Positions 2,716 to 52,834 of a stretch of DNA of 57,405 bases are shown piece after piece. The DNA comes from a virus: IMG/VR virus record IMGVR_UViG_3300044609_000868, positions 1-57,405 of that record; one strand, given 5' to 3'. Position numbers and translations under genes: made by a program. Numbering within the stretch: position 1 is the first letter of the stretch; each line of letters starts with the position of its first letter. Below the pieces are notes generated by a model. It worked only from the letters and a program-made list of their open reading frames with translations, made no database searches and was not told the origin of the DNA.

Positions 2716-3315
2716 GTGAAGATTCCTTCAACAATCCGAGCTGGCGACACCGTGGTGTGGGTCGATGACCCGACCGTGGATGTGTTTGGCGCACCGATTG
2801 ACGGAAGCAATCACGGGCTGACCTATTACCTGCGCACGAACCACAACCATCAAGGCGCAACGGTCGCCGGCGTGACGGTGGTCGGCACGCCGCAGGGCAG
2901 TGGCTGGACGTTCACGATCCCGGCGGGGACGACGGCAGGCTTCGTCGCTGACACTTGGTACTTCCAGGCGGTCGCGACAGCAAATGCTGGCGGCGCAAAG
3001 ACGACGCTGGGCAGCGGATCGCTGACGGTTGAGGCCAACATGGCCTACGCCGGCAACCCAAGCGCATTCGACGGCCGCAGCCAGGCGCAGAAGGATCTCG
3101 ATGCAGTGCAGGCTGCAATCCGCTCGCTGATGAATGGCGGTGCGGTGCAGGAGTACCGGATCGGAACCCGCAACCTGAAGCGCTATGAGCTGTCGGAGCT
3201 GCTGGCGCTTGAGTCGCGGCTCAAAGCTGTGGTTGCCCGTGAGAACAAGGCGGCGATGATCGCCAATGGGCTGGGCAACCCCCACAACCTGTTTGTCCGC
3301 TTTGGTGGCCGCTGA
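2716..3315 (+). CDS. Head completion (gpW-like) protein with extra N-terminal beta domain
   Basis: 199 aa from GTG 2716 (a TTG at 2695, inside the terminase gene, would add 7 residues). The C-terminal 65 residues, with DLDAVQAAIRSLMNGG followed by a YELSELLALESRL helix, look like lambda gpW, which sits between terminase and portal and completes the head-tail joining surface. Residues 1-110 are Gly/Thr/Val-rich and beta-like, resembling an Ig-like or decoration fold, which lambda gpW (68 aa) lacks. Gene order (terminase, W, portal) is as in lambda. The stop overlaps the portal start. Confidence 0.65.
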   Translation: MKIPSTIRAGDTVVWVDDPTVDVFGAPIDGSNHGLTYYLRTNHNHQGATVAGVTVVGTPQGSGWTFTIPAGTTAGFVADTWYFQAVATANAGGAKTTLGSGSLTVEANMAYAGNPSAFDGRSQAQKDLDAVQAAIRSLMNGGAVQEYRIGTRNLKRYELSELLALESRLKAVVARENKAAMIANGLGNPHNLFVRFGGR

Positions 3316-4931
3316 TGGGCATCCGCACTCGAGTCATGACGGCCCTTGGATTCGGGGCCAAGCCAACACCGGAGCAGCCACGCCGCCGGCGTCGCACCTA
3401 TGCCGGGGCGATCATCAACCGCCTGACCAGCGACTGGATCAGCAACGGCACCAGCGCCGACGCTGAGATCAAGACCAGCCTGCGCAAGCTGCGTGATCGC
3501 AGCCGCCAGATGGTGCGGGACAACCCGTACGCCCGGCAGGCCAAGCGCACGACGCAGATCAACGTGGTGGGCCAGGGCATCAAGCTGCAGTCGCAGGTGA
3601 TGACGCTGCGCGGCAACAAGCGCGACGAGCGGATCAACGCGGCGATCGAGAGCAAGTGGGAGCGCTGGACCCGCAAGGACCACTGCGATGTGGCGGGCAA
3701 GGCCAGCTTCCACATGTTCGAGTGGCTGGCCGTGGGTGCGCTGCCCGAGTCGGGCGAGGTGCTGTTCAGGATCCACCGCAAGCCGTTCGGCGGCAGCAAG
3801 ATCCCACTGGCGCTGGAGATCATCGAGAGCGATCTGCTCGACGATGAGTACAACGGCGCGGTGAGCGCCAAGGGCAACGAATGGCGCATGGGGGTCGAGA
3901 TCGACCGCTACGGCCGGCCGGTGCAGTATGCGTTCCTGACGCGCCACCCGGGTGACTATTGGTTCCAGGGCACACCGGACAGGGCAAACGTCAAGCACGT
4001 CTTCCTACCAGCGAAGGACGTCATCCACCTTTTTGTGCCCGAGCGCCCGAACCAGCACCGAGGCGTGCCCTGGTTCGCGCCGGTGATTACCGATGCCCAC
4101 CAGCTGGCGGGCTACGAAGAGGCCGCGGTAGTGCGCGCTCGTTCGGCGGCATCGCTGATGGGCTTCATCACCAGCCCCGAGGGCGAGCTCGAGGCGGACG
4201 ATGTCGAGAACGGCCAGCGGATCAGCGAGTTTGAGCCTGGGGTGTTCAAGTACCTCGACCCGGGTCAGTCGGTAACGGTGCCGGACATCTCCTCGCCGGA
4301 TGCGCAGTACGAGGACTTCGTGCGCGCCAAGACGCGGCGGTTTGCGTCTGGCTTTGGCTGCTCCTACGAGACGCTGAGCCGTGATTTCAGCGAGACCAAC
4401 TACAGCAGCAGCCGGCTGTCGCTGCTCGAGGACCGCGACCACTGGAAGGTGGTGCAGTCGTACCTGATCGAAAACTTCCACCTGCGGGTGTTCCGCGAGT
4501 GGCTGGACGTGGCAGTGCTGAGCGGTGAGCTGGCACTGCCTGATTACGAGCTGCGGCCTGAGCGCTATGACAGCCCGAAATGGCTGGCGCGCGGCTGGAG
4601 CTGGGTTGATCCGCTGAAGGAGGTGAAGGCCTACCGCGAGATGGAAGCGGCTGGCTACATGACGAAAGCGCAGATCTGCGCGCAACTGGGTGGTGATCTT
4701 GACGAGAACCTGCAGCAGATTGCGCGTGAACGGCAAACGGCGGAAGAGCTTGGAGTGAAGCTTGATGCCGACATGAACCCGGCCGCTCCCGCTCCCCAGG
4801 AGCAGCCGGTAGGCGGGGAGGCTGCGAGCCCGATTCCTGAGCCTCCCCGCCAGCCTGCGAGATCGCGTCGCAAGAAAGCGTCTAAGGTGGGTGAAGTTCA
4901 ATCTGAGCGTCCAGAGGGACCGCTTAACTGA
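3315..4931 (+). CDS. Portal protein (lambda gpB-type)
   Basis: 538 aa. The dodecameric portal forms the unique head vertex through which DNA is packaged. The N-terminal region (RDNPYARQAKRTTQINVVGQ), FHMFEWLAVGALPESGEVLFR and the segment around FSETNYSSSRLSLLEDR are typical of the lambda-B portal family. The C-terminal about 60 residues are Pro/Ala/Lys-rich and probably disordered. The start overlaps the preceding stop (TGATG) and the end overlaps the capsid start, so the head genes are translationally coupled. Confidence 0.93.
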   Translation: MGIRTRVMTALGFGAKPTPEQPRRRRRTYAGAIINRLTSDWISNGTSADAEIKTSLRKLRDRSRQMVRDNPYARQAKRTTQINVVGQGIKLQSQVMTLRGNKRDERINAAIESKWERWTRKDHCDVAGKASFHMFEWLAVGALPESGEVLFRIHRKPFGGSKIPLALEIIESDLLDDEYNGAVSAKGNEWRMGVEIDRYGRPVQYAFLTRHPGDYWFQGTPDRANVKHVFLPAKDVIHLFVPERPNQHRGVPWFAPVITDAHQLAGYEEAAVVRARSAASLMGFITSPEGELEADDVENGQRISEFEPGVFKYLDPGQSVTVPDISSPDAQYEDFVRAKTRRFASGFGCSYETLSRDFSETNYSSSRLSLLEDRDHWKVVQSYLIENFHLRVFREWLDVAVLSGELALPDYELRPERYDSPKWLARGWSWVDPLKEVKAYREMEAAGYMTKAQICAQLGGDLDENLQQIARERQTAEELGVKLDADMNPAAPAPQEQPVGGEAASPIPEPPRQPARSRRKKASKVGEVQSERPEGPLN

Positions 4932-7194: not shown

Positions 7195-8208
7195 ATGATC
7201 GCTGGTCTGATCAAGGCCAAGCGGAACTACAACCCCTCCCTGATTTCGATCGGGGAGGGCTTTCTGTTGGCGTACCGCTCCGAGCCGGAGGATTTCAAGG
7301 TCAGCGAGATCGTGCTCGCTGAGACGGACCGCAACATGAAGGTGCTGAAGAATCAGCGCTTGAAGGTTCCAGGAATTCCAGATGGTTGCTCGCTCGAGGA
7401 TCCGCGGCTGTTCTGGTTTGGCGGCAATCTGCATTTGGCGTTCTCGATCGCCCGGTACGGCGAGGCCGGCGGCTGGAAGTGCGTGCAGGCCTACGGAAAA
7501 CTGAAGAAGGGCAAGGCTTGGACGCTGGCCAACGTGATCGTGCCCAAATACGGCGCGAATGACTGGTCAGGCAAAGAAAAGAACTGGACGTTTTTTGAAG
7601 CCGAAGGTGCGCTGCGGTGCATCTACGACATGGGCACGGCCGGCTGGGTTGTGCTTGAGCTCGACGGTGATGAGGTGGTGCAAGAGTGGCGTCATGCACC
7701 CGTGGCCTGGCAATGGGGCCGACTGAGCGGTGGGTCGCCGGCGGTCGATTGGGAGGGCCAGAAGATCACGATGATGCACAGCTGGGAGAAGCACCCGAGG
7801 CGCCACCGGCTGTATCACATGGGCTTCCTGACGTTTGACTCAGTGGCACCGCATGCGCCGCGGATGATTTCACAGTCGCCGGTGGTGACAGCGCAGGACG
7901 ACTGGGGAGCACCTGAACATGCTGAGCGTTGGCAGCCGCTGTGCGTGTTCCCGGGTGGACTCGAGGTCTACGGCACTAAGGCGCTGGTGAGCTATGGCCG
8001 CAATGATCTCGACTGCGCCACGGGAGTGTTTCGGATCGAGCGGCTGCGGCCGGTGGCAGGGCGGCGGCTTGCGGGCCGCGAGCAGCGGATTCGGCTACTG
8101 GGCAATGTGATGCTGGGTGGCCGGCAAACCTGGGCTGGGACCGAGGTTTCAGTGCTGGCGGCCGACGCGGCTAGCCTGATTGCACGCGGCAAGGCGGTGG
8201 CGCTGTGA
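7195..8208 (+). CDS. GH130-like glycoside phosphorylase/hydrolase (five-bladed beta-propeller)
   Basis: 337 aa. Features recall the GH130/GH43-type five-bladed propeller enzymes, which phosphorylise or hydrolyse beta-mannosides: YNPSLI followed by GFLLAYRSE, then GCSLEDPRLFWFGGNLHLAFS (GH130 proteins carry an EDPR motif) and the later GGSPAV...ITMMHSW strand pair. It sits tightly between the capsid gene (2-nt gap) and the connector gene (4-nt overlap), so it is expressed with virion proteins. It may be a virion-associated glycan-processing enzyme or a non-enzymatic propeller. I cannot confirm the catalytic residues by eye. Confidence 0.6.
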   Translation: MIAGLIKAKRNYNPSLISIGEGFLLAYRSEPEDFKVSEIVLAETDRNMKVLKNQRLKVPGIPDGCSLEDPRLFWFGGNLHLAFSIARYGEAGGWKCVQAYGKLKKGKAWTLANVIVPKYGANDWSGKEKNWTFFEAEGALRCIYDMGTAGWVVLELDGDEVVQEWRHAPVAWQWGRLSGGSPAVDWEGQKITMMHSWEKHPRRHRLYHMGFLTFDSVAPHAPRMISQSPVVTAQDDWGAPEHAERWQPLCVFPGGLEVYGTKALVSYGRNDLDCATGVFRIERLRPVAGRRLAGREQRIRLLGNVMLGGRQTWAGTEVSVLAADAASLIARGKAVAL

Positions 8209-8480
8209 TCACGGAAGACCTGAACCTGTTCCTTGAGGATTTCGGCGTCACGTGCACTGCGGGGGCCGTAACCGCACTTGGCATTCTCGACATGCCATCG
8301 CAGGTGGTCGCTGATGGCATGGTGCTCACCACCGACTACAAGGTGACGTGTCGCGCCTCGGTGTTTGGCGGCCTCAAGTATGGCGACGCAATCACTGTCG
8401 ATGGCGCCGCTTACACAGTGCGCGAGAATATGCTGATCGATGACGGCAAGTTTTGCGAAATCATGCTGCAGAAGTCCTGA
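8205..8480 (+). CDS. Head-tail attachment/connector protein (gpFII-like)
   Basis: 91 aa. Short beta-rich protein with GDAITVDGAAYTVRE near residues 64-78, the fold signature expected of lambda gpFII-type connectors that form the tail-binding surface on the head. GTG start overlaps the upstream stop (GTGA). Its place, after the capsid and before the tail terminator, matches that role. Function is assigned from position plus weak sequence resemblance. Confidence 0.6.
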   Translation: MITEDLNLFLEDFGVTCTAGAVTALGILDMPSQVVADGMVLTTDYKVTCRASVFGGLKYGDAITVDGAAYTVRENMLIDDGKFCEIMLQKS

Positions 8481-8519
8481 TTTCTCACTCCATCCTTCGC
8501 GCCTACCGTGGCGACCCCC

Positions 8520-8529
8520 GCTAATCTGA
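8520..8529 (+). promoter_or_regulatory. Recurrent GCTANNCTGA element (candidate extended -10), copy 1
   Basis: GCTAATCTGA ends five bases before the ATG of the tail terminator gene, in one of the few gaps of the late operon. The core TAATCT fits the cyanobacterial sigma-70 -10 form TANNNT. Related copies lie at 20899, 27807 and 28948, all in intergenic gaps just before a start codon. A promoter role is inferred. Confidence 0.4.
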
Positions 8530-8533
8530 TGCC

Positions 8534-8956
8534 ATGACCAAGCGCGAACAGATCCTTGCCGCCATCCGCACGGCACTAACTGGAACAACCGGTGTTGGCA
8601 CCCGGATTTATCGCAGCAGGGTTGAGCCCATGGCCCGACAGGAGAGCCCTGCAATCGTGGTAGAGCCGCTCAGAGATCGCAGCGAACAGAACACCAGCTT
8701 GCCGACACTCGACTGGAGCCTTCTGGTCCGGGTCGCTGTTGTTGTTCGAGCAAACGTGCCCGATCAGGCGGCGGATCCAGTCATTGAATCGCTGCACTCC
8801 AAGCTCATGGCAGATCTCACCCTCGGAGGTTTGGCCATCGATATTCAACCGGTCCAAGTAGAGTTCCAAGCAGTGGAGGCCGATGTACCTGCGGGTGTCG
8901 CCTTGTGCGATTATCTCGTGAGGTACAGAACCTCCGTCGCAAACCTGGGTGCCTGA
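8534..8956 (+). CDS. Tail terminator/completion protein (gpU-like)
   Basis: 140 aa. An N-terminal helix (REQILAAIRTALTG) is followed by a beta sheet (ESPAIVVEP, WSLLVRVAVVV), a helix (DPVIESLHSKLMADL) and a final strand (DYLVRYRTS), the typical layout of gpU-like tail terminator proteins that cap the tail tube. The gene precedes the tube gene by one small ORF. No clear Shine-Dalgarno sequence; a GCTANNCTGA element lies immediately upstream. Confidence 0.65.
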   Translation: MTKREQILAAIRTALTGTTGVGTRIYRSRVEPMARQESPAIVVEPLRDRSEQNTSLPTLDWSLLVRVAVVVRANVPDQAADPVIESLHSKLMADLTLGGLAIDIQPVQVEFQAVEADVPAGVALCDYLVRYRTSVANLGA

Positions 8957-10691: not shown

Positions 10692-13600
10692 GTCAGTAGC
10701 ACGGGTAAAAGTCCAGGCGACGGCTGATCTGAAGGGGCTTGAAGATGCCAAGAAGGCGCTACAGGACCTTCAGAAGGCCGTCGGCCCGACTGACGCGGCG
10801 CTGGCGCAGGTCCGGCAAGAAATTATTGAATTTGGGAACGTTAATAAGCGCACTGAAGCTGCTATTCAGGCGCAAGTTAACGCCTTCCAGAAACTCCGCC
10901 AGCAAGCGGAAGTAGGCGGGAAAGTTTACAACGATCTTGGCCGCGACATTGAGCGGCTCAAGAGGGTTGCCAACGAATCTGGCGCCGCGATCTCGAAGCT
11001 TGGCCAGGCCACCGCAAGTGCTGGTCGACAGCAAGGTGGTAAAAGCTTCTGGCAGCGGCAGTCCGAGGAGCTAGTAGCGTTCAACCGCCAGGCCGGGCAG
11101 ACCGGCAAAGCGGTCAGCGAACTGGCGGCAGCGTTCGACATGAAGTTCGAGCGCGCCGGCAGCGCCATTCAGGAAGCTGGACGCGAGATTGCCAGGCTGA
11201 AGCAGAACGCCTCCAACATCGGCAGCCTGATGCAAGGGCCCGCCAAGGGTGGCGGCGCCTTTGAAGTGGGCCGCAAAGGCCTCGCCGACATCCAAGCGTT
11301 CTCGCAGCTTGTCACCCGACTGAAGGAGCAGACCGAGACCGCCACCGGCCGCGTCGCCCGCCTGTCAGAGGGCCTGTTTGCCGCCGGCGTGGCGGGCAAG
11401 GGCATCAGTGCCACCGTCACATCACTGGGTGGCGTGGCTGGCGCCGCGGAAAACGTCGCCAAGTTCGCCGCCAACCTGTCGGCCAGCTTTGCCCAGATGG
11501 GTGCTGGCGCTCCGCAGTGGGCCGGCGGCATGAAAGCGGCCCTGAACCAGATTTCGCTGCTGCTGAACCAGCCGGCGAATGGCGTCGCCAACTGGGTCAG
11601 CTCTCTCAACAGCGCTCAGGCGAAGCTTTCCGCCCTGAATGTCCCCCTCGAGGCGTTCAACAACGCCCTGGCGGCGATCGGACCAGAGGGTGCCGCCGTT
11701 GCTGGTGTGCTGGCGGTCTCGTTCGCCGGCTTGCAGGATGCAATCACCCGGGCGTTTCGGGCTGGCGACAAAGAAGCGAGCCAGGCTCTACAGAGCATCA
11801 CCGACGAGACCCAGCGTCTCATCAACAAGCTCGCGCAACTGAGCGAAGCCTTCCGGGGCGCCGCCAGCATGAACGAGCTGCAGGCGCTGCGCGCTGGCGG
11901 TGCTGCACGGTTCAACGAGACCCCGGCCGGCACCGATGCCAGCCGGCGAGCGGCCAACACGATCGCGAATGCTGAGGCGCGGATCAAGGCCGAGGCAGCC
12001 GCTCAGGCTGACGTGCTCGAGCAGGCTCGCCAGCGCTACCGGGGCACCACCGAGAGCGTTGATGCTCTAAGCGAGCGCCTCGCCTACCTGCAGTCGGCGA
12101 TGAAGCTCGTCGACCAGTCCACCACCGAAGGCAAGGCTGAGTTTGCGGCTTTCTCGAGCGAGGCAACTCAGGTCAAGCGTCAGATCGACGCCCTGTCACA
12201 GTCCTACCGGACCGTGGCCGATGCCATTCGGGAGGCGACCGCGGCGCAGGGCGAATACGCCAACAAGGGCACCGTCTCCAACTACCTGAACCGGGCCGCT
12301 GTTCGCCAGCAGGAAGAGCTGGCAGCGGCAGCCAGGACGGCACTGAACCAGCCTCAGGTGTTATCGCTGCCAGCGGCGGGGCAGACATCGTTCTCGGGCA
12401 CCTATGGCCCTAGCGGGATCGGCGGTGGCGCAAGGCTGGGCACCGGAGCCAAGGATTCCCCGTTCACGATTGGCGCCGAACAGGTCGGAGCTGGCGTCAC
12501 CGCGCTCTACAGGGGCGCAGAGCGGTCGGAAATGCAGATTGCTGCAGCCGGCGCCGCCCTTGAGCGTGAATTCAATAATGCGTCAAATGCGATTAACCGA
12601 GCAGAAAAAGAGCTGAATGATGTCCAGAAAGAGCTAAATGAAACCCTGAGAGATGGGCTTCGGGTAGCAGAAGCGCTCACAAAGATTGATTTCGTCAATC
12701 CGAATTCAATCAACGCCCTCAAGGCTCGTCGCGAGCAAATCGATCGCGAACGTAACTCCGTCGACATGCTGTCGAAGGAGTACAAGCAGCTGTCTGGCGA
12801 GCTGGCAAAGGTCGACAGGCAGATCGAAGGCACCCAGGCGGGCGGCCTGCGCGGCAAGGTTGGCTACATCGGCCAAGGCGTCGGCGCCATCGCCTCCGCC
12901 GGCATCTTCGGCGGCCCTGAGGGCGCTATCGGTGGCGCGCTCGGTGGCGGCATCGGCGCCGCGTTAGGCGGCCCTGCTGGCTTTGCGGCTGGCTCGTTCA
13001 TCGGCTCGTCGATCGGCGCCTACGCCGGCATGATTCGGCAGAGCGTCGCCGCAACTGGCGAGTTTTCCGCAGAGGTCAAGCGACTGGAAATTGCCTTGCA
13101 AGGCGTGACCGGTAGCGCTCAGGAATTTGCACGCGCTCAAGAAATCATCAAGCTGGCCGGCGTTGAGCTGAACGTGCCGGTGCTCGAAGCAACCAAGGGC
13201 TTCACCCAGCTCACGGCAGCCGTCAAAGGCGCCGGCGGCAATGTCACTGATGCAGAGATCGTCTTCCGTGGCGTTACTGAGGCCATCAAGGCGACTGGTG
13301 GCGGCGCAGACGAGGTGCAGGCATCGCTCACTGCGATGTCGCAGATCTTCTCAAAAGGCAAGGTTTCGGCGGAAGAACTGCAGGGCCAGCTCGGTGAGCG
13401 CTTGCCTGGTGCTGTCACCTTGTTTGCCGAGGCCACCGGCCGAACCCTGCCCCAACTGCAAAAGGATCTGCAGGACGGAACGGTCGGCCTAGCCGACGTG
13501 ATGAAGTTCGCTGCGTCGCTGAGCGACAAGTACGGCGAACAGGCAGCCAAGATGGCCGCCTCCACCGAGGATTCCACAGCGCGGATGAAGGTGGCGCTGG

Positions 13601-43424: not shown

Positions 43425-43639
43425 TTGTCCTGTCGTGGGTTGTTGGGAAAGCCGCGCATGTTGCGCTGCTCGAATTGAACAATCTCATGGATTGGATAGA
43501 GCACTCGACCGCCGGCTTTGAACCAGCGCGGACCACGTTGCTGCGAACGCCAGTTGTCCAGCGTGCTGAGACTGACGACATTGCGCCAGCGCTCAGCGAG
43601 CTCACGTGGGGTCAAGTACGTCTCACCAGACTGCATCAT
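43421..43639 (-). CDS. Excisionase/AlpA-like helix-turn-helix protein
   Basis: 72 aa. YLTPRELAERWRNVVSLSTL, then DNWRSQQRGPRWFKAGGRVL and YPIHEIVQFEQRN are the MerR-type winged helix of the AlpA/HTH_17 family, which includes recombination directionality factors. It is the best candidate for the excisionase matching the integrase, although it lies in the recombination operon and not beside int. Overlaps RecT by 17 nt. Confidence 0.7.
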   Translation of the reverse strand: MMQSGETYLTPRELAERWRNVVSLSTLDNWRSQQRGPRWFKAGGRVLYPIHEIVQFEQRNMRGFPNNPRQDK

Positions 43640-44285
43640 CTACCACCTCCTCAGATGCCTTTATTTCCTGGATTTTGCCGTTCAGGTCTTCAACGATCGA
43701 CGGCTGTTCGGTTACTTGCACTTCTTCAATTTCAACGACTTCTTCTTGAGTCTTCATGCCAACCAGGAATTCAGGCACATAGAGGCGTCCCCAAAACGCA
43801 GCAGCACGATACCGGATCATGAGATCCGGCATTGTCTGCCACTTAGACCCTGATTTCGTCGCCCATCCTTCGCGCTTGGCCATAGCCATGGTCACAGCAG
43901 GACCGCGCAGCTCCTTCCCTGTTGCGATCTCGGTCGCGTAGGCAAAGCAGCTCAAAGAATCACCTTCTCCGCTGATTGTGTAATCCAGCGGAGTGAATCT
44001 CCCGCACCCATTGATCATCGCGATGATGAACTGGGACGACCAGCTAGGGCGGCCATGAATAATGTGCAAGTTTTGCATTACCTGCAGGGGCGATAAATTC
44101 ATTCGCCCGGCAATCTCCATTGCTACCAGCGTGTTTGCCAGTCCTTGTTGTCCTTGGTATTCCTTGGGCACTAAAGCGCTGCTCGCCAAAGCTTTCGCAA
44201 TGCGCTGAGCGTTCTCGAACTGTCGAATCCCAGTAAAGACACCTTCCGACTGGGTTACCGCAAGGGAAGTTGACTGTTCAGGCAT
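43623..44285 (-). CDS. RecT-like single-strand annealing protein
   Basis: 220 aa. RIAKALASSALVPKEYQGQQ, then GLANTLVAMEIAGRMNLSPL and NLHIIHGRPSWSSQFIIAMI are characteristic of the RecT/Redbeta superfamily. It anneals complementary single strands during phage recombination, with the exonuclease upstream and SSB downstream. The acidic C-terminus (EEVVEIEEVQVTEQPS) may be regulatory. Confidence 0.88.
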   Translation of the reverse strand: MPEQSTSLAVTQSEGVFTGIRQFENAQRIAKALASSALVPKEYQGQQGLANTLVAMEIAGRMNLSPLQVMQNLHIIHGRPSWSSQFIIAMINGCGRFTPLDYTISGEGDSLSCFAYATEIATGKELRGPAVTMAMAKREGWATKSGSKWQTMPDLMIRYRAAAFWGRLYVPEFLVGMKTQEEVVEIEEVQVTEQPSIVEDLNGKIQEIKASEEVVDDAVW

Positions 44286-44287
44286 AA

Positions 44288-45109
44288 TCAGAAGCCTTCA
44301 ATTTCAGTGATGGGTTGGTCAGAATCGTCTTGCAGCCATGTCGGAACTGCTAGCGATTGGATTTCGTCGCCGTAGCCGGGCCACTGATTCGCAGCACGAC
44401 ATGTGGCGAGTTGACGCAGGTCTTCCTGCGCCTCCCGCAGGCCGCGTTCGAGCAGTTCCGCCGGCGTAGCGTACACCGCCACTGCATAGGGCGGCTTCTT
44501 CTCGACAGCCAAAAACAAGAACTGCTCAGCCTGCAGTGACTGACTGTAGAACGCAGCCTGCACGTGGTAGCGATACTTCATCACCGAGCGCAGGAACCCA
44601 CGAGGGCTTGCGTCGTCGGTGGTCTTCACGTCAGCGATCAGCCGGCGATCGTCGCTGTGCCAGTCAGGCCGGCACTTGCAGTTCTCGCCAGTGGTCTCAT
44701 CAGTCCAGAAGTAAGACTGCTCGCACTTGCCCGGCAGCCGCAGGATCGTCCGCGCCGCAGGGTGGCGATGCACCGCCTGGGCCATCGCCTCGATGTGAGC
44801 AGCGTCCTCGGCCTTCAGCACGGTCTTGCCGCCGGCTTCGTCCTCGAAATCAGCCCACCGCAGCTTGCCCTCCTTGGTCCGGCGGTCGATGCCTTCCGGC
44901 GCCACGATGTACTCGTCGTTGAACAGGTGAGGTTCCAGCACCCGCGTGTGCAGCGCTGAACCCAGCACCATGGCCGGGGTCGGTGGCTCGATGATCCGGT
45001 CTGGATTCAGGTACCGATTCCAGAAGTGCAGCGGTGAACGCCGGATCTGGTCGAGACCTGATTTCGAGACCTCTGGCCGAGCGTGATACTCCGCGTTGGT
45101 CAGTCCCAT
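44288..45109 (-). CDS. RecE-like exonuclease (PD-(D/E)XK)
   Basis: 273 aa from ATG 45109; GTG 45193 would add 28 residues, but the shorter start (MGLTNAEYHARPEVSKSGLD) matches the usual family start. SPLHFWNRYLNP, LGSALHTRVLEP, then CKCRPDW / RLIADVKTTDDASP contain the PD-(D/E)XK residues (Asp, Asp-x-Lys) and the QAAFYSQ helix completes the exonuclease VIII-type nuclease. It resects double-strand ends for RecT. Confidence 0.85.
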   Translation of the reverse strand: MGLTNAEYHARPEVSKSGLDQIRRSPLHFWNRYLNPDRIIEPPTPAMVLGSALHTRVLEPHLFNDEYIVAPEGIDRRTKEGKLRWADFEDEAGGKTVLKAEDAAHIEAMAQAVHRHPAARTILRLPGKCEQSYFWTDETTGENCKCRPDWHSDDRRLIADVKTTDDASPRGFLRSVMKYRYHVQAAFYSQSLQAEQFLFLAVEKKPPYAVAVYATPAELLERGLREAQEDLRQLATCRAANQWPGYGDEIQSLAVPTWLQDDSDQPITEIEGF

Positions 45110-45267
45110 AGGCTTAACTTGCGTCTGTGGATCGAAGCTTACCGCTGTTTCCCGCACCTTCACGCCTCCCTGTCGCACTTCTTCACACTTCACGGGAATT
45201 CCCGGCTAAGTGCTTATTATTGCTGTGTTTTTTCACTTATCCCTTGCGGACCACTTAGGTCAAGACG
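45110..45267. promoter_or_regulatory. Divergent early control region with operator-like repeats
   Basis: Space between the leftward recombination operon and the rightward helicase operon. TAAGTG (45207) and CACTTA (45234) form an inverted pair, with a further CACTTA at 45252 next to the helicase start. A 12-bp perfect palindrome centred on GAATTC spans 45193-45204. An AT-rich TATTAT (45215-45220) could be a -10 box. This is the most likely site of the lysis-lysogeny switch or early promoters. Confidence 0.55.
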
Positions 45268-47347: not shown

Positions 47348-48111
47348 CTGCTATGCTTCGACCGTTCACACACAGTGACAAGACTGTGACAATCAGACCG
47401 ATTGAGACCCGCTACGCCGGGCATCGCTTCAGGTCGAGGCTCGAGGCTCGCTGGGCGGTGCTGCTCGACAGGCTCAACATCCGTTGGCTTTACGAGCATC
47501 AAGGCTTTGAAACACCTCTTGGCCCCTACCTGCCCGACTTTTGGCTACCGGAGCTCAACACGTTCCTGGAGGTAAAGCCGGGCATCTGGAGCTCGGATGA
47601 GGCCTACAAACTCGAGCAGCTCATAAGGGCCCAGAAGGCTTATGGCGCCTTCGGACTTCCGTTTGACAGCGACCAGATTGTTTCCAGCCTTTATCCAGTT
47701 GACGAAAACTTTGAGCGCCTGCACCCATGGCCAGCCGCTCTGCCTCGGCCCGCGTCTTGGGATTCGTTTCCATTACCAAAAGCCGCATCGATCGGGTGGG
47801 ACAACATTTGTTGTCCTGCTTGCGGTGAAGATAACGTCCATTTCAAGCCGCCTCAATACCTGACTGGCGACTATCCACACCGCCACGTTCGAGATCGCGG
47901 GCCTATTACAGCAATTCCCATGTGGAGCGAGAACTGCGACCACCAATGGGAGCTGGTGATCGCCTTCCATAAGGGTTCAACGTCGATGCAGTTTTGCCTA
48001 CCTCACGATCGCAACACATCGCCGCTTGAGCTAGCCCTTGAGGGACCTGGTGGTGCCGCTGCTGTCGCGGCCGCACGCACAGCCCGCTTTGAACACGGCG
48101 AAACCCCATGA
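47344..48111 (+). CDS. PD-(D/E)XK endonuclease-like protein
   Basis: 255 aa. YAGHRFRSRLEARWAVLLDR (Glu34), YLPDFWLPELNTFLEVKPG (Asp65, Glu76-x-Lys78) is a typical restriction-type nuclease core. The C-terminal half has CCPACGEDNVHF, suggesting one zinc-binding end. It could be a host-DNA-degrading or recombination nuclease; related ORFs are common in cyanobacterial mobile DNA. Confidence 0.75.
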   Translation: MTAMLRPFTHSDKTVTIRPIETRYAGHRFRSRLEARWAVLLDRLNIRWLYEHQGFETPLGPYLPDFWLPELNTFLEVKPGIWSSDEAYKLEQLIRAQKAYGAFGLPFDSDQIVSSLYPVDENFERLHPWPAALPRPASWDSFPLPKAASIGWDNICCPACGEDNVHFKPPQYLTGDYPHRHVRDRGPITAIPMWSENCDHQWELVIAFHKGSTSMQFCLPHDRNTSPLELALEGPGGAAAVAAARTARFEHGETP

Positions 48112-48263
48112 CCACCCCCAACCACCAGCGCCTCGTAGCGCTCGTTCGCGCCGATCAAAAGGCCTGGCTCCAGTCCAAAGTCACACCGCTTAGTTCGCTT
48201 GCAGACGTGGTCCGCGAAATCATCGATCAAGCCATTGAAAATGACATCCGCAAACAATCCTGA
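48108..48263 (+). CDS. Ribbon-helix-helix-like small protein
   Basis: 51 aa in an ATGA overlap upstream. HQRLVALVRADQKAWLQSKV, then SLADVVREIIDQAIEND follows the beta-helix-helix pattern of CopG/Arc regulators. It is placed directly before the primase and overlaps it by 23 nt. It may autoregulate the operon or bind the repeats downstream. Confidence 0.65.
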   Translation: MTTPNHQRLVALVRADQKAWLQSKVTPLSSLADVVREIIDQAIENDIRKQS

Positions 48264-50883
48264 TTTTGACGCCGCACGCCAGTTCCTAGCTGCGCTCGGC
48301 AAACCCAAGGGCGCTATCCGCTTGCGTGGCTTCTACGCGAAGACCGATCCACGCAAGGCCGACGACAAAGGTCGAAAAGGCGCCCCCACTAAATCCCTAA
48401 TGGAAGAATGGGTCGCGGATCGTCGCGGCGTCTATGTCGTGATCAACAACGGCGGCGACAACGACGCCGACATCACTGAGTGCATTGCGTTTTTCATCGA
48501 GTGGGACGACAGACCCAAGGACTGGCAGGTCACCGCTTGGCGTGAATACGGCCTCCCCGAACCAAGTCTTCAGGTCGACACCGGCGGTAAGTCGATCCAT
48601 AACTATTGGATCCTTTCTGAGCCCGTGGACGCGGTGCGCTGGAGAGCTGTTCAAACGCGGCTGATTGATTACACCAAAAGCGACGCACAGCTGAAAAATC
48701 CTTCGCGGGTCATGCGCTTGCCCGGCATGCCAAACGCCGCGACCGGGGTGCCCGTAGCAATCATCCATCAAACAGAGGAGCGCTACACCGTTGACCAGAT
48801 TGAGGCTTGCATCCCTGAACCAGATCCGGTCTTGGCGGCATCGCCAGACCCCCGCATCGAACGAGCCCGGTCCTTCACCGATTACGAAGCCCAAGGGCTC
48901 GACGAGATCCAGAAGGCCCTCTCCTGCATCCCGCCTCGGGTGCCAGGTAGTGGCACCTACCCGATGTACCGCAACATCCTCTGGGGTCTGATGAAGGCCT
49001 GCGAGGAGGCCGGCAGCTCAGAGCAAACCGCCATCTTGATGATGGCCGGCCACTCCCCGCAGTGGGGCGGTATCGATCAGGTGGCTCGATCAGGTGGCGC
49101 AGAAGTCACTGCTGGCACCTTCTGGTACTGGGCGAAGGAACACGGCTACCGGGCGCCACGGCGGATCATGCCTGGGCCGCCAGAGCTGCGCAGCTTGCCT
49201 ACCGCATCCGTCAGGCAAGTCGAGCCTGAGCCAGTCGTGGAGCCGGATGTCGAGGACGACACTCCTGCGGTTTCCCTACCATTTCGCCCCCTTGGCTTCG
49301 ACCACGGCATCTACTACTACCTGCCCGCAGCTGCCTGTCAGGTCGTCGCCCTCACCGCTGCCCAGCACAACAAGAGCCACTTTCTGACACTTGCTCCCCT
49401 CGAATGGTGGGCAAACGGCTTCGGTAATGAGCGCGGTCGCATCGACTGGGATTCAGCCGTCAACGCCATCCTCGGCTCCTGCATCTCGCAGGGCGTCTAC
49501 GACCCATCCCGGGTGCGTGGCCGCGGCGCCTGGGCTGATGCCTCCCGCGTCATCCTGCATCTCGGCAATCGCCTCGTGATCAACGGGCGCTCGCACCCGA
49601 TCACCAAGCTGCCTCGCGACTTCGACAGCTACTACTTCTACGAAAACGCCAAGGCGATTGACGGCCCCGGCGGCGAGATCCTCTCCGACGACCTTTGCGC
49701 CCGGGTGCGCCTGATCGCTGAGCGCTTCCGCTGGGAGACGCCCGCCTCCGCCAACTTGCTGCTCGGCTGGATCGTGCTGGCGCCGGTCTGCGGCTCCCTC
49801 GACTGGCGGCCGCATATCTGGGTCACCGGTGGTGCCGGCACGGGCAAGACCACCATCCTCAAATCCTTTATGAAGCCGCTCCTCGGAGGCATGTTCGAGG
49901 GCGCGACTGGCGGCACCACCGAGGCCGGCTTGCGCGGTCAGCTGCGCTCCGACGCCATCCCCGTCGTGTTCGACGAGCTGGAGCAGAACGAGCACAAGGA
50001 CAAGCAAACCGTTCAAAACATCCTCGCCCTTGCCCGCATCGCATCGTCCGAGGGCGGAAAAATTTACAAGGGCACAACATCTGGCGGGTCCAACTCCTTT
50101 GAAATCCGCTCAATGTTCTGCTGCTCGTCGATCAATGTTGCCCTGATTCAACGCGCTGACCTCGATCGTTTTTGCGTCCTAAGCCTGCGCAAGGATCACA
50201 TGGACAAGGACGACTGGAACGAATTTGAGCAGGAAATCTTGAGCGCCTGCACTGAAGAAAACGGCCGGCGTCTTGTCGCCCGCACGCTCCAGCAGATCCC
50301 GACGATTCGCAAGAACGCCAAGACCCTTGCAGCTGCTTTGTCTCGGCGCTTCGGGCAGCGTTTCGGTGATCAGTACGGCACGCTGCTGGCTGGCGCCTGG
50401 ACGCTAGAGCCCGGCGGGGGTGGCGAGCTGTCGCTTCAGCAGGCCATCGAGTGGATCAACATGATGGACTGGGAAAGCCGGGAGGTTGATGCCGCTGACG
50501 CCGATGAGGTCAAGTGCATCAACCACATCCTGCAGACCCTGATCCAGGTGGATGGTGGCAAGCGCATGTCGGTGCTGGAGCTTGTCCAGATGGCTCAGCG
50601 CGGCGTGATCTTCGCCATCCCCGGCCGTGACCACCCCTCAGACGAGATCGAGACGATCCTCGGCCGCTACGGCCTCAAAGTGACCGGTGGGCTGCTGGCG
50701 GTCGCCAACAACAGCACCAACCTGCAGGGCTTGCTCAAGGACACCCCATGGGCCGGCAATGCCTATCGGCAGGCTCTGAGGCGGCTCACCGGTGCCACGA
50801 CCAGTAACAACACGATGCGATTCAAGGGCAGCGGCGTTGCACGTGCAACGTTGGTCCCACTTGAGACGCTTGAGACTCTGTAA
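48241..50883 (+). CDS. Primase-helicase (replication initiator)
   Basis: 880 aa from ATG 48241. Residues 1-200 look like an archaeo-eukaryotic-type primase domain (AIRLRGFYAKTDPRK, VYVVINNGGDNDADI, FFIEWDDRPKD, QVDTGGKSIHNYWI). The middle is a linker of helices. From about residue 400 comes a D5/SF3-like NTPase with Walker A GGAGTGKTTIL near 530, PVVFDELEQNE as Walker B, and SSINVALIQRADLDRFCVLS. It probably unwinds and primes phage DNA and may bind the repeat array directly after its stop codon. Confidence 0.88.
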   Translation: MTSANNPDFDAARQFLAALGKPKGAIRLRGFYAKTDPRKADDKGRKGAPTKSLMEEWVADRRGVYVVINNGGDNDADITECIAFFIEWDDRPKDWQVTAWREYGLPEPSLQVDTGGKSIHNYWILSEPVDAVRWRAVQTRLIDYTKSDAQLKNPSRVMRLPGMPNAATGVPVAIIHQTEERYTVDQIEACIPEPDPVLAASPDPRIERARSFTDYEAQGLDEIQKALSCIPPRVPGSGTYPMYRNILWGLMKACEEAGSSEQTAILMMAGHSPQWGGIDQVARSGGAEVTAGTFWYWAKEHGYRAPRRIMPGPPELRSLPTASVRQVEPEPVVEPDVEDDTPAVSLPFRPLGFDHGIYYYLPAAACQVVALTAAQHNKSHFLTLAPLEWWANGFGNERGRIDWDSAVNAILGSCISQGVYDPSRVRGRGAWADASRVILHLGNRLVINGRSHPITKLPRDFDSYYFYENAKAIDGPGGEILSDDLCARVRLIAERFRWETPASANLLLGWIVLAPVCGSLDWRPHIWVTGGAGTGKTTILKSFMKPLLGGMFEGATGGTTEAGLRGQLRSDAIPVVFDELEQNEHKDKQTVQNILALARIASSEGGKIYKGTTSGGSNSFEIRSMFCCSSINVALIQRADLDRFCVLSLRKDHMDKDDWNEFEQEILSACTEENGRRLVARTLQQIPTIRKNAKTLAAALSRRFGQRFGDQYGTLLAGAWTLEPGGGGELSLQQAIEWINMMDWESREVDAADADEVKCINHILQTLIQVDGGKRMSVLELVQMAQRGVIFAIPGRDHPSDEIETILGRYGLKVTGGLLAVANNSTNLQGLLKDTPWAGNAYRQALRRLTGATTSNNTMRFKGSGVARATLVPLETLETL

Positions 50884-51132
50884 CGGTTTGGGGCTTCCTG
50901 AAACGGTGGGTGTTACAGCGAGATCCCTTGCGGCGCAACGGATGTAACGTTTGAAACGCTTGTAACGCTTTTTCCCGGGAAAGCCCCATAGAGATATATG
51001 GCCCCAGAGACCCCCTTACCCCCTACTACTACTATCTCTATTTATAGAAATAGTTGTTACAACGTTACAACCCAGTCCCTGCAAGGGGTTTGGCTGTAAC
51101 GGTGACCGTTACAAGACCGTTACAGCGTTACA
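50879..51132. repeat. Iteron-like TGTAACG/CGTTACA array; candidate replication origin
   Basis: Ten copies of TGTAACG or its complement (or TGTTACA) at 50879, 50911, 50943, 50961, 51055, 51063, 51095, 51107, 51118 and 51126, plus a degenerate TGAAACG at 50952. The 50943-50967 group is spaced 9 bp; 51055/51063 and 51118/51126 are spaced 8 bp; 51095-51113 is a perfect 19-bp palindrome. An AT-rich stretch (51022-51056) with an inverted CTATTT/AAATAG lies inside. Position after the primase-helicase supports an origin. Confidence 0.75.
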
Positions 51133-51137
51133 AGACC

Positions 51138-51347
51138 ATGCCGACCACTCCCGACCACCACCGCCTCGCCCTATCCCCCACCAGATGGCCCTCCCTGCCC
51201 CGTGGAGCGGCCGTGAAGGTCTACATGGGCTCTCGGTGGGCCTCAGGCACCTGGCAGGGCTTCCAGGGCGATCGTGGGGCTATCTGGCTGGGCAGGGAGC
51301 AGCGACTGGTGCTTTGCGGGGATGCGCGCAATGTCAGAACGGCCTAG
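51138..51347 (+). CDS. Small SH3-like hypothetical protein
   Basis: 69 aa from ATG 51138, directly after the last iteron. GAAVKVYMGSRWASGTWQGF, GAIWLGREQRLVLCGDARNV suggests a small beta barrel. Function unknown. A start further 5' would run through the repeat array and is rejected. Confidence 0.55.
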   Translation: MPTTPDHHRLALSPTRWPSLPRGAAVKVYMGSRWASGTWQGFQGDRGAIWLGREQRLVLCGDARNVRTA

Positions 51348-51410: not shown

Positions 51411-52193
51411 GTGGCTGGCCGCACGATCACCTTCGATGCCGATGACCTGATCTCGAACCTGACATCGCTCGAGCGGGTCCAGATGCCGTTTGTGGCTTCT
51501 TGGGCGCTGAACCAGCTGGCGCCAAAGATCCGCAAGCTGCACCAGAGCGAGATGGCGCGGGACTTCAACAACCCGGTGCCGTTCACGGTCAACAGCCCGC
51601 GGTGGGGCGCCAGCGGTTACCAGCCTTGGGTCCGGTCGACGAAGCAGAACCTTGAGATGGGGTTCTGGATTTCGGAGGACGGCGCAAAGGGTCAGGACCC
51701 AGCGCGTTACCTGTTCCCGCAGGTGCAAGAGTCTGGCCGCGGCCGCAAGCCGATCTACGTCACCCGGTTCAGCAAGGCGCTGCGGCGCAAAGGTGTGCTG
51801 GAAGGTGTCGAATATGCGTTGCCGATTCGCGAGAGCAGCGCCGCTCGGCGGAACAGCTACGGCAACATTTCGCCGGGGCAATACACGCAGGTTTTGTATT
51901 CAATCGGTGCGATGACAGATTTCACCGACCGTCGCTACGGGCAAGCAAAGAAGGCGCCGTCAAGAGAGTATTTTGTCGTGCCCAGCTCTGCACCCGTCAG
52001 CGGCCGCCGGAGCACGCTGACGCCTGGTATTTATCGGCGCAAGAGTAACAATATCGCGATGTTGTTCAAGTTCCTGCCTGAGGCGCCAGATGTGACGCCG
52101 AAGTATGACTTCTATGGCAACACGATTGAGTGGGCAGAGGATTACTTCCCTGAGCTGGTGGAGAAGAAACTGCGCGAGGTGATGGGAGGCTGA
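51411..52193 (+). CDS. Tail completion-like protein (gpZ type), displaced
   Basis: 260 aa from GTG with TAGGAGG seven bases upstream. FDADDLISNLTSLERVQMPF, ASWALNQLAPKIRKLHQSEM, NNPVPFTVNSPRW and FPQVQESGRGRKP recall lambda gpZ-type tail completion proteins. In lambda this gene lies between the connector and the tail terminator. Here that place (8481-8533) is empty and the gene is about 43 kb away, after its own terminator. Confidence 0.6.
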   Translation: MAGRTITFDADDLISNLTSLERVQMPFVASWALNQLAPKIRKLHQSEMARDFNNPVPFTVNSPRWGASGYQPWVRSTKQNLEMGFWISEDGAKGQDPARYLFPQVQESGRGRKPIYVTRFSKALRRKGVLEGVEYALPIRESSAARRNSYGNISPGQYTQVLYSIGAMTDFTDRRYGQAKKAPSREYFVVPSSAPVSGRRSTLTPGIYRRKSNNIAMLFKFLPEAPDVTPKYDFYGNTIEWAEDYFPELVEKKLREVMGG

Positions 52194-52257
52194 GCGGCCT
52201 ACTGTTTCGGTTTGTAACGATGCGAGGATTTTGGGGTGGGCGGCGGCCTACTGTTTC
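52194..52257. repeat. 15-bp direct repeats
   Basis: GCGGCCTACTGTTTC occurs at 52194-52208 and 52243-52257, 49 bp apart, in a 94-bp gap. A further iteron-like TGTAACG lies between them at 52213. Possible regulatory sites or a duplicated junction. Confidence 0.6.
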
Positions 52258-52706: not shown

Positions 52707-52834
52707 AAGGGGGTATTTAGAAATGTTTTTACACACACAAATCGAACCTTTTCAAAGCTCGTTTGCCGCCGTAGTCATATAAGGCTGCGGCGCATTACTA
52801 TAGTGTAGTGCTGCAAAAAAAAACAGATAGACCC

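Follow-up and report, generated by a model that had tools for sequence, protein, structure and literature searches.

The window analysed here is the whole 57,405-nt stretch of virus record IMGVR_UViG_3300044609_000868. It carries a gene for a fused primase-helicase (48199–50883, plus strand), which we propose as a replication initiator. The 894-residue protein reads from a TTG start at 48199, with an ATG at 48241. Its N-terminal region (48241–49281, plus strand) is a probable archaeo-eukaryotic primase in which FIEWD and GGKSIH motifs can be picked out by eye; this region matches phrog_36873 at 27–176 and has no match in Pfam. The helicase part (49282–50508, plus strand) contains the motifs GAGTGKT and VVFDE. 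Next comes a C-terminal domain (residues 771–894; 50509–50880, plus strand) that is predicted to be winged-helix-like and is our candidate for the part that reads DNA repeats. Within it, the CGA codon at 50818–50820 (plus strand) specifies Arg874, a residue in a predicted wing hairpin that tracks letters 1 and 2 of the repeat.

A small ORF lies on either side. A 51-aa ORF (48108–48263, plus strand), termed RHH in the preliminary description and without a Pfam match, precedes and overlaps the primase-helicase gene. Downstream of the repeats is a short ORF beginning MPTTPDHHRL (51138–51347, plus strand), which is conserved beside the array in several relatives, including one with an altered repeat (L014). 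The ORF at 51411 encodes a minor tail protein, and the array lies between early-type and structural genes. Next to each other on the minus strand are a DUF3799 nuclease (44288–45193) and a weak RecT match (43623–44285), a recombination pair near the replication genes.

An iteron array with an AT-rich core follows the gene

The interval 50879–51132 holds an array of short repeats (iterons) that we propose as a replication origin. The window contains nine copies of TGTAACG, and eight of these fall in this interval, far above chance: in 100 shuffles of the window the mean was 2.1 and the maximum 5. Two TGTTACA copies (50911 and 51055) bring the array to ten sites, the count that had been given earlier for these 254 bp, and the first site does include the primase stop codon, the TAA of the 48199–50883 ORF. 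The ninth TGTAACG, at 52213, had also been pointed out. It is present but lies outside the array, and we rejected it as a member because a lone copy of this kind matches chance expectation.

The array unit in the window is 9 bp long, with consensus TGTAACGST, and is arranged in two inward-facing sets with an AT-rich core between them. The left set (50879–50967, plus strand) comprises exact TGTAACG at 50879, 50943 and 50961, TGTTACA at 50911, and degenerate TGAAACG copies at 50899 and 50952. The right set (51055–51132, minus strand) comprises CGTTACA at 51063, 51107, 51118 and 51126 and TGTTACA at 51055, with a single opposed TGTAACG at 51095. Start-to-start spacings along the array are 32, 32, 18, 94, 8, 32, 12, 11 and 8 bp. 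Of the 8- and 9-bp spacings described before, the 8-bp spacing is thus there, but a 9-bp period depends on counting the degenerate copy at 50952 (50943–50952–50961). Similarly, the reported perfect 19-bp palindrome (51095–51113) is an inverted iteron pair, TGTAACGGT-G-ACCGTTACA, whose 9-bp arms are perfect but are separated by a single central base.

The AT-rich element noted inside the array corresponds to the core at 51024–51053 (plus strand), a putative unwinding element in which TACTACTACTATCT precedes an AT-rich imperfect inverted repeat. Its TATCT is invariant among 12 near relatives. The TAC triplet run itself (TACTACTACTATCT, 51024–51037) occurs in 10 of 79 systems, several near relatives among them. 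It resembles the complement of the bacterial DnaA-trio element. We set this reading aside because the run is limited to those 10 systems and has no DnaA box nearby: none lies at the array, and the window's single TTWTNCACA, at 52727, matches the chance rate. Adjoining the core is the nearly invariant box TTGTTACAACGTTACAA (51054–51070), made of two adjacent iterons. A spacer element, GAGATCCCTTGC (50920–50931, plus strand), has its inverse, GCAAGGGG, near 51081–51088, and the two pair with each other in a predicted hairpin of the whole array.

The array recurs in more than 80 relatives

The helicase half of the ORF, used as query, returned 17 viral relatives. In all those with downstream sequence, the array directly follows the 3' end of the helicase gene, almost always with TGTAACG-type units. 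Wider searches found an array in more than 80 non-redundant relatives, and triple-TGTAACG arrays were common among the matches listed in a DNA pattern scan. Many relatives are cyanobacterial phages and prophages; hosts in the genome records are frequently Cyanobium and Synechococcus, with proteobacteria and others among the more distant ones.

The layout is shared along with the repeats. Across 79 systems, inward-facing iterons outnumber outward-facing ones in both the left set (302 versus 157) and the right set (310 versus 105). The core gap is mostly 94–107 bp, and the most frequent iteron spacings are 9 and 8 bp. The family unit is best given as T-S-T-N-A-C-G-S-T, in which letters 1–4 vary and letters 5–7 are constant, the latter partly through how sites were picked. 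Variants include TGTAACG, TGTTACG, TGTCACG, TCTTACG, TCTAACG, CCTAACG, CATTACG, TCATACG and others; TGTAACGGT, TCATACGGT, CCATACGGT and TCTAACGGT are examples of the iteron duplex. In L014 the units are TCATACGGT and ACCGTATGA, with the arrangement unchanged and the flanking genes conserved.

The positional link between array and helicase gene is not universal, since some relatives lack the array and several isolates have it elsewhere. We found no array 3' of the helicase gene in L239, L247, L250 or L254. In Acjo_20 (L145, ~3050–3450) a TGTAACA array lies upstream of the helicase gene, and the residue at position 874 is Arg. Arrays lie away from the helicase 3' end in ZRG1 (L143, ~11000–11600; GCTAACG, Gln at 874) and MQ-4 (L146, ~8150–8600; TGTTACC, Lys at 874).

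The primase half differs among relatives. In L009, L014 and L015 the window type is replaced by a zinc-ribbon primase domain, which gives a weak Toprim signal. One helicase half thus appears joined to either of two unrelated and exchangeable primase types, the probable archaeo-eukaryotic one or the zinc-ribbon/Toprim one.

A single helicase residue tracks the first two letters of the repeat

Relatives carry different repeat types, and the reader of the repeat should therefore vary along with it. Similarity of helicase residues 771–894 followed repeat similarity when helicase-core similarity was taken into account (partial r −0.37, reached by none of 999 permutations), and sliding windows over the other helicase segments detected no covariation with the repeat. 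An RHH protein lies upstream in 8 of 54 array-bearing relatives, two of the eight being weak matches. It is almost identical in the window, with TGTAACG repeats, and in L158, with TCATACG, and similar copies accompany TGTAACG, TGTTACG, TCATACG and TCTCACG repeats. We rejected it as the general iteron binder, since it is missing from most relatives and stays almost unchanged when the repeat changes; perhaps this ORF, which overlaps the start of the primase-helicase gene, regulates the operon. The binder had previously been put as either the primase-helicase or the RHH protein, and the comparison favours the former.

The covariation can be traced to one position. In a training set of 54 systems, Arg874 occurs in all 34 with G at letter 2, and His, Tyr or Trp in all 18 with C or A there; Arg874 also occurs in two systems where the repeat reads with its register shifted by one letter. 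Among all alignment columns, residue 874 is the one that divides letter-2 G from the rest in every case. Loci collected after the rule had been found served to check it: 31 new systems, non-redundant and each with four copies or more. Twenty-nine had a readable register, and all 29 obey it. Of the remaining pair, L418 conforms by its second repeat (Tyr, TCTTACG), whereas L432 gives no clear reading.

Residue 874 matches letters 1–2 in 83 of 83 systems, a set that leaves out systems with ambiguous repeats and includes two (L266 and L271) re-registered by hand. Arg goes with TG (45 systems) or CG (1), Trp with CC (13), Tyr with TC (13), and His with TC (7) or CA (4). Position 874 is Tyr in L158, Trp in L157 and His in L231. 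The next best column reaches 84%. Blind repeat calling, strictly 3' of the stop codon, agreed in 80 of the 83 and missed L266, L271 and L353, the last with a mixed array. When both traits were placed on a helicase-core tree, nine changes were inferred in letter 2 and nine in residue 874, and the two switch on identical branches. A coding artefact does not explain the link, because an iteron overlaps the residue-874 codon in only two of the 83 systems. Letter 4 changes 15 times, and a search among the helicase columns gave no clear partner residue for it.

That letters 1–2 can be read off one residue of the helicase tail points to the helicase as the recogniser. We lean, by a little over even odds, towards a code in which one wing residue (Arg, Tyr, Trp or His) sets letters 1–2, such that origin specificity would switch through one amino acid change together with the rewriting of about ten repeats. 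If this holds, the code would create replication compatibility groups among co-infecting phages. Searches of the open-access literature found no report of the array or of the residue rule.

The predicted fold and the arrangement resemble SaPI Rep and SCCmec Cch

An AlphaFold2 model of the helicase, built from an 85-sequence alignment, has a pLDDT of 90.2 (model number + 361 = protein number). In model numbering its C-terminal part contains a helix (494–500), a strand (512–514) and further strands (518–526). Residue 874 (513 in the model) lies in the first strand of a hairpin that we read as the wing of a winged-helix-like domain. The top ranks in Foldseek and VIA-align 2 were taken by the NrS-1 primase-polymerase, SCCmec Cch, SaPI PriRep, poxvirus D5/E5 and MCM proteins, the last matching in the AAA+ core only. 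The best whole-length match was SCCmec Cch (5dgk; Z 15.2, rmsd 8.9, 429 residues aligned, model 1–531), and SaPI5 (7ola) gave Z 13.7 over 302 aligned residues (model 1–402). By these matches the window helicase is predicted to share the overall Rep/Cch fold, an AAA+ fold. A profile search of the PDB sequences, covering solved chains only, returned no SaPI Rep or Cch match and only weak AAV Rep and P-loop ones.

In SaPI origins, iterons flank an AT-rich stretch, as they do in the window. The staphylococcal SaPI rep-ori and SCCmec Cch/Cch2 modules, like the window with its putative origin, have short iterons directly behind the helicase gene. In related SaPI Rep helicases the C-terminal domain recognises the iterons directly downstream of the gene (PMC7581432); in the window, it is the covariation of residues 771–894 with the repeat that suggests the same reader. 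Unlike the SaPI and SCCmec systems, the window system is phage-borne and its helicase is fused to one of two primases, and no sequence match to any related solved chain has a significant E-value. It also differs in its 9-bp units, whose letters 1–2 follow one wing residue, a feature for which we found no description. The window system most likely represents a SaPI-like arrangement, with iterons 3' of the gene for a self-loading AAA+/SF3-type primase-helicase.

A close parallel comes from the Synechococcus phage S-H1 (MK105819), in which a hypothetical protein (AZB50552) is 41% identical in its helicase part. An array of CCTAACGGT and CCGAACGGT lies directly behind its gene, with no origin annotation in the record. 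The repeat differs from that of the window, and position 874 holds the matching Trp.

Phage P4 depends on crr, a second site at a distance from ori; the window repeat forms no further array within the window. P4 also has a bacterial-type primase only, unlike the window family. Its alpha protein unites primase, helicase and an iteron-binding winged helix in a single chain (PMC4234260). The pRN1 system combines a small regulator gene, a PrimPol-SF3 protein with a C-terminal winged helix, and an essential stem-loop behind it, and stem-loop origins have been put forward both for pRN1 and for phages of Bordetella whose proteins are similar (PMC4234260). The pRN1 order (orf56–orf904–stem-loop) recurs in the window as a small gene, a primase with an SF3-type helicase, and an array region behind with a large predicted stem-loop. 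pRN1 is, however, described as lacking iterons, where the window has ten, and several window relatives have a zinc-ribbon/Toprim rather than an archaeo-eukaryotic primase.

A proposed origin and its alternatives

We consider the array to be a replication origin, most likely of the SaPI-like kind, at which the helicase C-terminal domain would bind the iterons, residue 874 would read letters 1–2 and the core would melt; we put the probability of this reading at roughly 0.8. An initiator-dependent origin had been suggested for this interval before, and its position, the AT-rich core, the dual arrays in more than 80 relatives and the helicase covariation all speak for it. The cumulative GC skew of the window has its minimum at 51201, beside the array, and two related contigs have theirs approximately near it, but in S-H1 and three other phages the minimum is not at the array. 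The skew check proposed earlier is thus suggestive in the window's own clade only, and we rejected skew as proof of an origin given the absence of the signal in other clades.

From sequence comparison we infer origin activity, iteron binding, residue–base contact, ring assembly, core melting and priming as follows. The primase-helicase, made from a gene that ends in the array, would use its C-terminal domain to bind the 9-bp iterons. Letters 1–2 would be read by residue 874 in the wing hairpin, with Arg for TG, and the constant ACG half by other parts of the protein. On the inward-facing arrays, which flank the AT-rich core and are separated by about 95 bp, two opposed sets of subunits may then assemble and form rings or a double ring. 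The assembled helicase would melt the core, and the attached primase domain would start synthesis.

Many phage repeat arrays are operators, and the array does sit between early-type and structural genes. It could therefore be an operator or silencer through which the helicase or another protein regulates the late genes behind it, with replication beginning elsewhere. We regard this as unlikely: an AT-rich core framed by two sets of inward-facing repeats, ten sites in all, is an origin-like anatomy that is kept in distant relatives, it is the replicative helicase that covaries with the repeat, and no further iteron cluster lies at any promoter within the window. A partition (centromere) site for the small RHH protein, comparable to the heptad repeats of plasmid omega/ParG, would suit both the 51-aa ORF ahead of the gene and the repeat length, as 7–9-bp repeats suit RHH proteins. 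The scarcity of that protein among array-bearing relatives and its similar copies beside differing repeats leave this reading with hardly any credence.

Further observations bear on a stem-loop origin of the pRN1 type, in which extrusion of a large dyad hairpin would matter and the iterons would be a by-product of the inverted symmetry. The 262-nt array region folds far better than its shuffles (z −4.46, 0 of 200 shuffles), z falls below −2 in 69% of arrays versus 3% of control segments, and 39% of arrays stay below −2 when the spacers alone are shuffled; pRN1 itself has the comparable set of small regulator gene, PrimPol-SF3 protein and essential stem-loop (PMC4234260). Against it, some iterons stand as direct tandem copies or are oriented so that they do not pair, and the repeat covaries letter by letter with the wing residue, which calls for sequence reading of duplex sites. 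We judge a purely structural origin very improbable.

The iteron-bound origin that we favour would give a widespread and poorly annotated phage group, much of it cyanobacterial, an origin and an initiator that can be tested; the helicase of this group is often listed as hypothetical. With more than 80 natural initiator–repeat pairs, and specificity seemingly resting on one residue, it would offer a rare view of how an initiator and ten sites change together, and origin type may be predictable from protein sequence.

Two relatives carry further repeats of other kinds. L273 has, beside a TGTAACC array, a second and different array of ~16 copies of CCCGATCG no more than 700 bp behind the helicase gene. 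At 11330–11455 in L158, tandem AGTACATTTGTACT palindromes are flanked by GATAATCRTTCTCA repeats resembling Fur boxes; the palindromes fit the cyanobacterial LexA box.
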